Assembly: GCA_036378675.1 (NCBI GenBank)
Contig: DASUWA010000054.1
Location: 1 to 64,000 of the forward strand
Length of the DNA: 64,000 nt
Origin: Acidimicrobiales bacterium
Lineage (GTDB): Bacteria > Actinomycetota > Acidimicrobiia > Acidimicrobiales > Palsa-688
Reading direction: 5' to 3'
Shown here in pieces: positions 9,714-50,975 of the stretch. Both the position numbers and the translations under genes were made by a program. A model generated the notes under the pieces. That model had not been told where the DNA came from. It did not search any database and saw only the letters and a list, made by a program, of their open reading frames with translations. Each line of letters begins with the position of its first letter. The first letter of the stretch is position 1.

Positions 9714-10787
9714 ATGGCTGCTTATCCCCCCGTGCGCGCCGTAGCCGATGGAGCCGACGGTGCGCCCGCCGATGCCCCCGCCATCATTGTCGAAGGCGTA
9801 AAGAAGTCCTTCGGAAACGTGCACGCGCTTCGCGGAATAGATCTCGCCGTCCCGAGAGGAACCGTGCTCGGCCTGCTCGGGCCAAACGGCGCCGGCAAGA
9901 CGACTGCAGTTCGAATACTCACGACGCTGCTCAAGCCCGACGAAGGTCGAGCGGTCATCGAGGGACTCGACGTCGTCGACGACGAGGAATCGGTAAGGGA
10001 GATCATCGGGCTGGCCGGTCAGTCGGCGGCAATTCAGGAAGAGTTGACCGGCAGGGAGAACCTGGAGATCTTCGGCCGGCTTCACCACCTCTCGAAACGG
10101 CAGGCGCGAATACGGGCGGAGGAGCTTCTCGAACGCTTCGACCTCGCCGACGCGGCAGACCGTCCGGCGAAGACCTACTCGGGAGGAATGCAGCGGCGCC
10201 TCGATCTGGCGTCGAGCCTTGTCGGAGATCCCCTGGTTCTCTTCCTGGACGAGCCAACCACCGGCCTGGACCCGAGGGGCCGGATCGGAATGTGGTCGGT
10301 GATCCGGGAACTAGTGTCCGCCGGCACAACATTGCTCCTGACAACCCAATACCTGGAAGAGGCTGACGAGCTTGCTGACGAGATCGTTGTCATCGACCAT
10401 GGACAGGTGATAGCCGCCGGTACCGCCGAGCAGCTGAAGGACAGGATCGGCGGGGACGTCATCGAATTCACCGTTCCGGACAGCACCCGGCGCGACGACG
10501 CAGTCCGGGCGGTTGTGGAGCTGTCGGAATCCGATCCGATCGTCGACGGGCAAACTGGCCTGGTCGCACTCCGCATAGGTCATCTCGGATCCGACGCGCT
10601 GATGCAAGCCGTGCGTTCGCTCGACGGTGCCGGCGTTTCGGTTCAAGGCCTGGCATTGCGACGCCCCTCTCTCGACGACGTTTTCCTCGCGCTCACGGGG
10701 CATGCGGCGGAGAGCGAAGACGAACCCGAGCCCAAACGAGGTCGCCGGCGGCGTGCGGCTGTCAGCAGCACGGAGGGCCGTTCGTGA
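9714..10787 (+). CDS. ABC-2 type exporter ATPase (DrrA-like)
   Basis: 357 residues. Walker A GLLGPNGAGKTT, signature YSGGMQRRLDLASSLVG, Walker B LVLFLDEPTTGLD, plus the C-terminal regulatory extension typical of the daunorubicin-resistance DrrA group. It energises export by the permease encoded next, whose GTG start overlaps its stop by 4 bp. The four-gene run with tldD and tldE suggests the exported substrate is linked to TldDE proteolysis. Drug export is the default annotation for this family, but nothing here identifies a drug. Confidence 0.92.
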   Translation: MAAYPPVRAVADGADGAPADAPAIIVEGVKKSFGNVHALRGIDLAVPRGTVLGLLGPNGAGKTTAVRILTTLLKPDEGRAVIEGLDVVDDEESVREIIGLAGQSAAIQEELTGRENLEIFGRLHHLSKRQARIRAEELLERFDLADAADRPAKTYSGGMQRRLDLASSLVGDPLVLFLDEPTTGLDPRGRIGMWSVIRELVSAGTTLLLTTQYLEEADELADEIVVIDHGQVIAAGTAEQLKDRIGGDVIEFTVPDSTRRDDAVRAVVELSESDPIVDGQTGLVALRIGHLGSDALMQAVRSLDGAGVSVQGLALRRPSLDDVFLALTGHAAESEDEPEPKRGRRRRAAVSSTEGRS

Positions 10788-30359: not shown

Positions 30360-30440
30360 CTCCTCGGGTGCGGTTTCCAATGTAGGCCGTGTGCTGCGCT
30401 CACCGGGGGGTACGATCAAGTCGGTAAAACCACACAACCT

Positions 30441-49310: not shown

Positions 49311-50126
49311 CTACAGGTGCTGCCGGTCAAGCCAGCCGATCAGGATCGCGACGGCGCGCGGATCGTGCCGGAGGCGGTGCGCGGCTCCGGAAAGGACGCG
49401 CAGCTCGACCTCACCGCCCGCCGCGTCGGCCAGCGCTCTGGCGTCCAGGACAGGCACGACTTCGTCGTTGGCCCCATGAACCAAAAGTATCGGCCGCGGT
49501 GGGACCTTGCCTATAAGGCTCAACGGCCGCACCTCCCGCAACTCTCGCGCCCATTCCTCGAGGTCCGGGGGGAAGTTCGGATCCCTGATCACTCCCACCG
49601 CCCGCGCCTGGGCTACGAACCGCCGGGCATCTGCCGCACGCTCGCCGAACTCCGCGGGAGCAGCGAACGCGGCAACGCCCCTCACCCTCGGATCCTCGCC
49701 GGCAGCACAGACCGCCAGCGCGCCCCCGGCGGCGAAGCCACACAGCCAAACAGCGTCGACGGACGGGGCGCCGATCAGAACGTCGACTGCGGCGTTCAAG
49801 TCGCTCAACCACCCGCCGAGGGAAAAGTTCCCCGAGGACTGCGCGGTCCCCCGGAAGTTGAAGGTGAGGACCACCCAACCGGTGTCCGCGGCCAGACGGT
49901 CGGCCAGTTCCTGGTACCCGCGGCTGGTCATCGTGGCGTCGTTCAACTCGACAGGGAAGCCGTGGCACAGGACGAGACCGTGGCGGTTCCGGCCGGCTGC
50001 CGAGGGGGCCGGCCTGGCCAGGTAGGCGGAAAGTGTGACGTCGTCGCCGGGAACCACGATCGAAAACGGCCCACCGCCTTCCGGCAGTGAGCCACGCGGT
50101 TCGGCAACACTCATTGGGACGTTCAT
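49311..50126 (-). CDS. alpha/beta hydrolase-fold protein lacking the nucleophile Ser
   Basis: 271 residues with a complete alpha/beta-hydrolase layout: oxyanion region LVLCHGFPVELN, the strand-5 elbow, acidic position in VHGANDEVVPV and His in SGAAHRLRHDP. The elbow reads G-F-A-A-G (130-134), with Ala132 where the family has the nucleophilic Ser (codon GCC). The rest of the fold is well kept, so this is either a non-catalytic member or one with an unusual nucleophile. Convergent with thiE, 22 bp apart. Confidence 0.85.
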   Translation of the reverse strand: MNVPMSVAEPRGSLPEGGGPFSIVVPGDDVTLSAYLARPAPSAAGRNRHGLVLCHGFPVELNDATMTSRGYQELADRLAADTGWVVLTFNFRGTAQSSGNFSLGGWLSDLNAAVDVLIGAPSVDAVWLCGFAAGGALAVCAAGEDPRVRGVAAFAAPAEFGERAADARRFVAQARAVGVIRDPNFPPDLEEWARELREVRPLSLIGKVPPRPILLVHGANDEVVPVLDARALADAAGGEVELRVLSGAAHRLRHDPRAVAILIGWLDRQHL

Positions 50127-50142: not shown

Positions 50143-50172
50143 CAGGGAGGCCGCGCTGAGGCGGCCTCCCTG
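50143..50172. terminator. 12-bp GC-rich hairpin upstream of the hydrolase-fold gene
   Basis: CAGGGAGGCCGC / GCGGCCTCCCTG with a 6-nt loop. No T-tract on either side. It may end a minus-strand transcript from the structured region beyond it, or sit in the leader of the gene ending at 49311. Confidence 0.5.
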
Positions 50173-50444
50173 GTCGAACTTGTTCTGGATAGCAGGGTCA
50201 TCCGTTGACTGCCGGCTGGGACCAGATTCCGACCGGATCTACCCCGGGTAGCTGGCTTGGATTCACCAGGTGGTCCAGGCGCCGCCTAGCGGCCAGACAC
50301 CTCCGAGGTCCCAAAAAGTTGACTGCTCAGCTGGACCACCTCCTTTCCTCGGTGAGGATGATCCTAGCGGCCGGGTGGCGGCTGCCGTTGGCAATAAAGC
50401 GATCACCTCTCGCTCACCAACGTCGGACGCCCGCCCGCACGGGG
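50173..50444. other. structured intergenic stretch, possible non-coding RNA
   Basis: No convincing gene in this stretch. An 11-bp inverted repeat AGGTGGTCCAG (50268-50278) / CTGGACCACCT (50331-50341) encloses smaller hairpins, including CACCTCC / GAGGTC and GCCGC / GCGGC. The distal part reads CTGGACCACCTCCTTTCC on the plus strand, close to the 3' end of 16S rRNA; on the minus strand this is a very strong Shine-Dalgarno, AAAGGAGGTG, without a good start codon after it. Nothing else resembling rRNA, tRNA, RNase P, SRP or tmRNA is present. Confidence 0.4.
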
Positions 50445-50456: not shown

Positions 50457-50975
50457 GTGCCCATTTACGCCATCGGCGAACGAGTTCCATCCATCCACCC
50501 CGACGCGTACATCCACCCGGAGGCGACCGTCATCGGCGACGTCAGGATCGGAGCCAACAGCAGCGTATGGCCGAGCGCGGTTCTGAGAGGCGACTACGGC
50601 GCGGTGATCATCGGGGAGTCGTCGAACATCCAGGACGGCGCGGTCGTCCATGCGACCGATCAACTGGATACACACATCGGGTCCTGGGTCGTTGTCGGGC
50701 ATCTCGCGCACGTCGAGGGATCCACCATCGAGGACGCCGCGCTGATCGGCGTCGGATCGATCGTGCTTCACCGGGCCGTCGTCGGAAGAGGCGCGACGGT
50801 AGGTGCCGGCGCGGTCGTCACCAACGACATGAACGTTCCGCCTTCCGCGCTCGCCGTCGGCGTCCCCGCACAAATCAAACCGGACCGTTCTCGTGCCGAC
50901 GTGATCGAGCTGATGGCCAAGGTCTACGTCGACAATGCGGCCCGCTACAAGAAGGGCTTGCGCCTGATCGAGTGA
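50457..50975 (+). CDS. gamma-carbonic anhydrase-like hexapeptide-repeat protein
   Basis: 172 residues, left-handed beta-helix with isoleucine-patch hexapeptides (IHPEATVIGDVRIGANSSVW) and the conserved RGDYGAVIIGESSNIQDGAVVH start of the active site. Gamma-carbonic anhydrases bind Zn/Fe with three His: one at VVH and two in a GHxAxxHG loop. Here the loop is GHLAHVEG, with Glu at the usual third His and a His two places earlier, so carbonic anhydrase activity is uncertain. Related proteins act as acyltransferase-like or accessory proteins. GTG chosen by homology start (PIYAIGERVP) and the promoter 6 nt upstream. Confidence 0.85.
   Translation: MPIYAIGERVPSIHPDAYIHPEATVIGDVRIGANSSVWPSAVLRGDYGAVIIGESSNIQDGAVVHATDQLDTHIGSWVVVGHLAHVEGSTIEDAALIGVGSIVLHRAVVGRGATVGAGAVVTNDMNVPPSALAVGVPAQIKPDRSRADVIELMAKVYVDNAARYKKGLRLIE

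Follow-up and report, generated by a model that had tools for sequence, protein, structure and literature searches.

A probably translated, pseudoknotted small RNA of Acidimicrobiales related to the actinobacterial Ms_IGR-5 RNA

Introduction

What is encoded by a spacer of about 300 bp that carries, on one of its strands, a near copy of the 3' end of 16S rRNA? The question is raised by a locus in an Acidimicrobiales genome (assembly of 4.1 Mb in 75 contigs), which lies in the 64,000-nucleotide stretch of DNA analysed here and referred to as the window. A preliminary description had delimited the region as 50143-50444, had seen no convincing gene in it, and had pointed to a 12-bp hairpin, an 11-bp long-range stem and an anti-Shine-Dalgarno motif; as possible roles it had listed a small RNA with an effect on translation, a riboregulator, and a leader containing a short peptide.

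A conserved RNA gene on the minus strand

The spacer separates an alpha/beta hydrolase gene on the minus strand (49311-50126; Pfam Hydrolase_4/Abhydrolase_1) from a plus-strand gene for a hexapeptide-repeat protein, which begins at 50457 and which we take to be gamma-carbonic-anhydrase-like. Between the two, a conserved stand-alone RNA of about 210 nt was located on the minus strand (50143-50353), based on matches to the Rfam model RF02471 (50353-50187) and to R1 (50354-50210), a covariance model made from 31 Acidimicrobiales sequences. The ends of the RNA are inferred, the 5' end from a conserved AC start and the 3' end from a hairpin. The borders given earlier were nearly right; the conserved RNA starts near 50353, and the remainder up to 50444 consists of promoter and divergent spacer. 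A -10-like box, TAGGAT, can be read on the minus strand at 50361-50366, 7 nt 5' of the inferred RNA start, and TA...T is found at -10-box spacing, at either of two adjacent positions, in 48 of 77 homologues. A consensus scanner returned no sigma-70 site in the promoter region of the RNA.

At the other end, the 12-bp hairpin is present as described (minus strand, 50143-50172, with arms 50143-50154 and 50161-50172). It is GC-rich and terminator-like, and a T tract is absent in the window. In 59 of 76 homologues, a stem with no fewer than nine pairs follows downstream, accompanied in 17 of those 59 by at least five T in the next 12 nt. As the hairpin of the window lacks a T tract and the hydrolase gene starts on the same strand 16 nt past it, co-transcription of the RNA and the hydrolase is possible in the window. 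A same-strand hydrolase downstream of the RNA is found in Acidimicrobiales (a cluster of 30 ORFs). Outside this order, the first called downstream gene lies on the opposite strand in 30 of the 43 loci that have one called, a hand count on heuristic gene calls by third-position GC. From this comparison, the RNA is a stand-alone, single-copy gene of the minus strand with changing neighbours. ARAGORN reported neither tRNA nor tmRNA in the 64-kb window, which speaks against a tmRNA with its tRNA-like domain and tag ORF, and no Rfam family scored above its curated threshold there.

Relationship to Ms_IGR-5

A BLAST search with the region matched 44 of 61 genomes at E <= 0.001, the genome of the window counted, and the best stretch was about 50209-50355. 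At a loose threshold, the Rfam search aligned the full length of RF02471 (Ms_IGR-5; model positions 1-184) to the minus strand at 50353-50187 with 34.0 bits and an E-value of 3.4e-6, yet this score stays under the curated gathering cut-off of 45 bits. The relationship is supported by intermediates: a genome of the same order (G140) reaches 45.9 bits with RF02471, above the cut-off, and R1 recovers, at E-values of 7.8e-13 to 5.2e-11, three loci (L061-L063) that score 161-176 bits with RF02471. A search of the class with RF02471 gave matches in 32 of 100 genomes at E <= 0.1, one of them above the cut-off, and a search of the phylum gave matches in 38 of 149 genomes at E <= 0.01, 14 above it. With R1, the RNA was found in 112 of 197 genomes of the class, one copy each, and in 93 of 298 genomes of the phylum, again as a single copy save for one genome with two, for which 7% contamination is estimated. 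R1 had no match in the other 85 genomes of the class and 205 of the phylum, strict filters losing weak matches; hence the RNA appears to be dispensable, or escapes detection, in many genomes. No relative was found in plasmid or phage records.

By its sequence, the window RNA is a divergent relative of the Ms_IGR-5 small RNA, whose family extends across Actinomycetota. The small RNA considered earlier is supported by the phylum-wide homologues, the relationship to Ms_IGR-5 and the promoter-like box of its own, and the lack of conservation beyond the immediate strain, which had been named as the finding that would speak against it, is decisively contradicted.

The Ms_IGR-5 family itself is already known. 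Ribosome-protected reads cover the MS_IGR-5 homologues of M. abscessus and M. smegmatis, and the parts of that report consulted describe such RNAs as lacking clear translation evidence (PMC4974804). According to excerpts of further reports, an MS_IGR-5-type small RNA forms a transcription unit in S. avermitilis (PMC8780764), Ms_IGR-5 of S. lividans is backed by RNA-seq (PMC8079986), and ncMSMEG15794c of M. smegmatis under cold stress overlaps IGR-5 (PMC10454040). A term search of the main text of an article on peptides coded by bacterial small RNAs (PMC5521070) gave no mention of IGR-5. In the literature searched, which did not include the original M. smegmatis report or supplements, no ORF, 16S pairing or pseudoknot is described for Ms_IGR-5, and these features, discussed below, are apparently undescribed there; for the ORF and the 16S pairing, in which the window RNA differs from the published accounts of Ms_IGR-5, this refers to the portions of those accounts that were available.

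Predicted pairing with the 16S rRNA tail

Close to its 5' end, the RNA contains an extended Shine-Dalgarno sequence, SD1 (GGAAAGGAGGTGGTCCAG, minus strand, 50331-50348), which is complementary to the 3' tail of 16S rRNA. The number of contiguous standard pairs that it forms with the tail is 16-18 in 81 of 82 homologues and 12 in the remaining one. The substitutions in its 15-nt core, GAAAGGAGGTGATCC, are of eight kinds only: five positions show A to G, two show C to T and one shows A to T. Seven of the eight keep the pairing through G-U wobble. Such wobble-preserving changes are the mark of selection for pairing with an invariant partner, and the comparison indicates that SD1 is selected to pair with the 16S tail. 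The loci were found partly with a motif that allows three substitutions of any kind, which bounds their divergence and not the type of change. The predicted energy of the SD1:16S duplex is -32.2 kcal/mol in the window and -32.3 to -26.6 kcal/mol in the 82 homologues, and among 42,652 24-mers sampled from both strands of the window, SD1 is the strongest predicted site of pairing with the 16S tail. The next strongest sites, at 30364-30373 and 10093-10096, both on the minus strand, have predicted energies of -28.0 to -29.8 kcal/mol. In a nested fold, which is blind to pseudoknots, SD1 has a mean unpaired probability of 0.33 and is thus mostly paired.

The 16S-tail-like motif on the plus strand, CTGGACCACCTCCTTTCC, is present at 50331-50348 as reported earlier, and it is the complement of the 5' segment of the minus-strand RNA. 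Its locus is the only place in the 4.1-Mb assembly within two mismatches of CTGGATCACCTCCTTTC; no true 16S tail was found in this assembly, and an exact copy of the real tail, GGCTGGATCACCTCCTTTCT, was found in 10 of 40 genomes from the order. The reading as an anti-Shine-Dalgarno sequence on the plus strand could not be upheld, as the conserved ORF, the promoter box and the structure all lie on the minus strand. A 16S-like regulator transcribed from the plus strand, where no conserved feature was seen, was rejected as well.

A short open reading frame

SD1 is followed directly by a short ORF on the minus strand (50286-50330), which runs from CTG to TAG over 14 sense codons and reads MSSQLFGTSEVSGR; an equivalent ORF is present in all sets of homologues. 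Its codons in the window are CTG AGC AGT CAA CTT TTT GGG ACC TCG GAG GTG TCT GGC CGC TAG. The ORF contains a second Shine-Dalgarno sequence, SD2 (GGAGGTG, 50298-50304, minus strand), with 8 nt between its GGAGG and the last sense codon. The ORF is of a size that length cut-offs conceal.

In a first set of 82 loci, the stop codon falls exactly at GAG GTG x x x STOP in all 82 (53 TAG, 21 TGA, 8 TAA). This set comprises L001-L086 less L040 and L041, which duplicate L001 and L030, the partial and unlocated L057, and L083, which the locator misplaced although the model does match its genome; it holds near-identical relatives, for which reason distinct combinations are given where relevant. Between SD1 and SD2, the frame of the ORF contains four stops in the first set, all of them 5' of the start codon, and the other two frames contain 74 and 64. 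A scan of named genomes by the SD1-start region alone yielded 29 further distinct sequences, which are all open to the same stop (14 TAG, 8 TGA, 7 TAA). Of 105 further sequences found by the model, four lack an exact GAGGTG, and 96 of the remaining 101 have the stop at the standard place, five not. The nine exceptions are L161, which has GAGGCG, and eight low-scoring, deep-branching homologues (L261, L262, L264-L269), which keep start and stop and have SD2 in a different frame or lack GAG GTG.

All sequences pass with the landmark widened post hoc to GAGG[TC][GA] or [TC]AGGTGG and with near-cognate start codons, also admitted post hoc. Pooling 244 sequences and reducing them by identity of their first 75 nt, one with an N there being skipped, left 209 distinct homologues, and every one of them has an ORF of 10-17 codons. 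Its start lies 5-13 nt past GGAGG and its stop 15 nt (201 sequences) or 14 nt (8 sequences) past the GAGG landmark of SD2. The stop is TAG in 143, TGA in 43 and TAA in 23 cases; if the second and third stop columns were independent, 29.4 TGG would be expected, and none was observed. With shuffled spacers, such an ORF survives in 25% of cases. The starts are CTG (65), TTG (64), ATG (45), ATC (15), GTG (12), ATT (5), ATA (2) and ACG (1), so near-cognate codons make up 88 of the 209, in a pool in which Acidimicrobiales are over-represented. With ATG, GTG and TTG alone, 121 sequences pass, and with CTG added, 186.

The 209 sequences encode 192 distinct peptides. Serine is found at codon 2 in 97 of the 209 sequences, where AGY as well as TCN codons spell it. 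In nearly all sequences, the codon preceding GAG is one for Leu, Ser, Arg, Pro, Cys or Val; a synonymous change of GAG GTG was never seen. The comparison shows the start, the open frame and the stop to be kept while the peptide varies. With an ORF in all homologues, the comparative evidence for translation is strong, and it suggests that an RNA family known as "non-coding" is probably translated, which makes it a candidate for a coding or dual-function small RNA.

Fold of the RNA

The comparison supports a fold through three helices, H0, H2 and H3, and a pseudoknot between the loop of H3 and the ORF. H0 joins CCGA at 50349-50352 to TCGG at 50303-50306 (all coordinates in this section refer to the minus strand), the latter formed by the codon before SD2 plus one G. 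The two strands covary: all four pairs are formed in 76 of the 82 homologues, and 15 of 18 distinct combinations are fully paired, compared to a mean of 3.3 and a maximum of 9 after shuffling. In the structure line of RF02471 the first 13 positions are unpaired, and hence H0 is absent from the Rfam model. The 5' strand of H2, GGTGTCTGGCCGC (50289-50301), ends at the last sense codon and pairs, with compensatory changes, with GTG at 50264-50266, opposite the last codon CGC, and with GCCAGCTACC at 50247-50256. In other orders, GGACCACC constitutes the 3' strand of H2. When duplexes were swapped between loci, the own pairing of H2 was better than the mean swapped one at 17 of 19 loci of the class and 17 of 24 other loci, but at only 16 of 34 Acidimicrobiales loci, where the helix hardly varies.

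The pairs of hairpin H3 (50212-50236) covary, and its loop GGTCCCA (50217-50223) forms the 3' strand of the pseudoknot, covarying with TGGGACC in the ORF (50307-50313). A run of at least five pairs between the loop and GGGACC of the ORF was found in 174 of 199 sequences, with 29 two-sided changes compared to 6.8 after shuffling. All three flanking pairs are formed in 121 of the 199, the shuffled mean being 53 and the maximum 68; in these column counts, 178 sequences had the required core and the rest were scored as misses. Over the whole structure, 295 two-sided changes were counted in a further 96 sequences (94 of them distinct) that had been fitted to R1, compared to 66 in shuffled and at most 59 in slid alignments. 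The alignments A4-A6 were fitted to the structure of the model, which biases them in its favour, while H0 was counted in the 82 loci without such fitting.

The 11-bp long-range stem reported earlier is present and perfect, between 50331-50341 and 50268-50278. Its partner segment, CTGGACCACCT (50268-50278), resembles the 16S tail, is able to pair with SD1 and is mostly kept in 33 Acidimicrobiales sequences. As the main structure, this stem was rejected: it is kept in Acidimicrobiales, and two-sided changes are absent. H1, a pairing of GGTCC of SD1 with GGACC, was also discarded as a supported helix; it can form in most sequences, and every change in it is one-sided, so it is possibly a mere alternative to the pseudoknot.

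Comparison of the loci places one strand of H0, of H2 and of the pseudoknot within the ORF, which ends where the 5' strand of H2 ends. The codons inside the helices appear to follow the pairing and not the amino acid.

Proposed mechanism and alternative explanations

We propose, at about even odds, that the locus encodes a translated, pseudoknotted small RNA, which would dock on the 30S tail and be refolded by the translating ribosome. The folded RNA would present SD1 to free 30S subunits, its exposure being favoured while the loop of H3 engages GGACC. A ribosome would then start translating the ORF, in many cases from CTG or another near-cognate codon, and in doing so would unzip H0, H2 and the pseudoknot. 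At the stop codon, the 8 nt from GGAGG of SD2 to the codon in the P site correspond to the spacing of an initiation complex, and hence the terminating ribosome, located over SD2, would be held and H2 kept open. Upon its release the RNA would refold, so that it may alternate between a closed fold and a form opened by the ribosome, which would act as the 'ligand'. The opened form may free the C-rich 3' strand of H2 to pair with mRNAs, or it may alter the stability or decay of the RNA. The least certain step is that the RNA would act in trans and thereby read out the capacity for initiation. The broader proposal, a ribosome-operated switch that reports initiation-competent ribosomes, regulates in trans and, together with the CC2171-type RNAs discussed below, belongs to a class of micro-ORF RNAs docking on the 16S tail in two phyla, is made tentatively and with some doubt.

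The combination of a very strong SD1 with SD2 at an initiation-like spacing to the last codon could also be read as a decoy, in which an abundant RNA takes 30S subunits or initiation factors out of circulation by titrating or parking them and the ORF and SD2 serve to hold the ribosome. The frequent near-cognate starts would fit this as well. 6S RNA, a structured small RNA that binds RNA polymerase as a mimic of its natural nucleic-acid partner and titrates the enzyme, offers a parallel; the likeness, that of a structured RNA to the partner of a large machine, is one of analogy, their sequences having been compared through the Rfam scan alone. However, a decoy requires a high copy number, and a pure decoy needs neither a covarying pseudoknot nor an exact stop. 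We consider it unlikely; the covarying pseudoknot fits better with a switch opened by the ribosome than with a bare decoy. That the RNA is a plain mRNA for a functional micropeptide of about 14 residues is somewhat less probable still. The universally kept ORF, the serine at codon 2 with its two codon types and the ribosome footprints on homologues, as far as seen in the parts of PMC4974804 consulted, speak for it; however, nearly every sequence has a peptide of its own, the final three codons, like the one before GAG, track the RNA helices and not amino-acid identity, GAG GTG is free of synonymous changes, and in eight sequences the ORF passes over SD2 in another frame. A fixed stop with a variable peptide fits better with a ribosome-opened switch than with a peptide product.

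Two other roles appear improbable. A leader or attenuator of the downstream gene would agree with the same-strand hydrolase in the order of the window, but a conserved same-strand downstream gene is confined to Acidimicrobiales, and the RNA is conserved also where the gene called next is mostly encoded on the opposite strand. Of the leader with a short peptide suggested earlier, the short ORF, translated by the comparative evidence, stands, while the leader role lacks support outside the order. A similarly small chance is given to a base-pairing small RNA that targets the Shine-Dalgarno sequences of mRNAs with 16S-like segments (CTGGACCACC and the 3' strand of H2), the ORF being incidental. 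C-rich segments complementary to Shine-Dalgarno sequences do lie downstream of the ORF; yet an ORF present in 209 of 209 homologues is not incidental, and conservation of the window's 16S-like segment as such does not extend beyond Acidimicrobiales. A chance resemblance or a decayed 16S fragment, which might be suggested by 17 nt that differ from the 16S tail at a single position, is refuted by the phylum-wide conservation, the covariation and the ORF, and its probability is negligible.

Together, the conserved micro-ORF, the exceptional length of the Shine-Dalgarno match and the covarying pseudoknot, which shares bases with the ORF, link directly to the ribosome an RNA of phylum-wide occurrence that has been filed as a non-coding small RNA. 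Sensing of translation capacity in mycobacteria and streptomycetes would be a testable role, and the RNA may be a natural model in which to study near-cognate starts and Shine-Dalgarno pairing by terminating ribosomes.

Related systems

Exceptionally long pairing of a Shine-Dalgarno sequence with 16S rRNA, as in SD1, has been described in the consulted parts of a report on Bacteroidota rpsU, where it serves regulation by sensing the state of the 30S tail (PMC9976891). There the extended Shine-Dalgarno sequence precedes the gene for ribosomal protein bS21 and drives its synthesis, whereas SD1 of the window precedes a 14-codon ORF in a stand-alone RNA and is not of the rpsU type.

A closer resemblance in layout is seen with CC2171, a small RNA of Caulobacter (RF01867), which starts with GAAAGGAGGTGATCCA and, like the window RNA, has a start codon within 6-7 nt of GGAGG. 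Five alphaproteobacterial loci found by the CC2171 consensus, two of which pass the CC2171 cut-off, share the same kind of Shine-Dalgarno sequence, ORFs of 24-26 codons beginning with VSHC, and a GC hairpin. The ORFs follow directly after GAAAGGAGGTGATC(C) and end with TAG, TAA, TGA, TAA and TAA. As they stand directly behind a Shine-Dalgarno sequence and differ in their stops, CC2171 also looks translated. These loci lie on alphaproteobacterial replicons at 1493-1673 (L270), near 1501 (L271-L273) and at 1491-1664 (L274). The window RNA scores 21.6 bits with RF01867, compared to a cut-off of 75 bits, and the CC2171-type ORFs are longer and encode a different peptide; the likeness seen is one of Shine-Dalgarno sequence and ORF layout. 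If the broader proposal is true, micro-ORF RNAs that dock on the 16S tail would form a class with members in two phyla, the alphaproteobacterial CC2171-type RNAs and the actinobacterial ones. Elsewhere, the genome of the window has one more CC2171-like match, a very weak one (L088, C5:122691-122839; 17.6 bits, E 0.28).

In three Azospirillum loci (L275, L276 and L277, near 1501-1700), the same extended Shine-Dalgarno sequence precedes ORFs of 57-59 codons, which begin with MSHGA and have a signal-peptide-like start. At L276 and L277 the next gene is annotated as carbonic anhydrase, and the window RNA also has a neighbour presumed to be carbonic-anhydrase-like; the shared neighbour is probably a coincidence.
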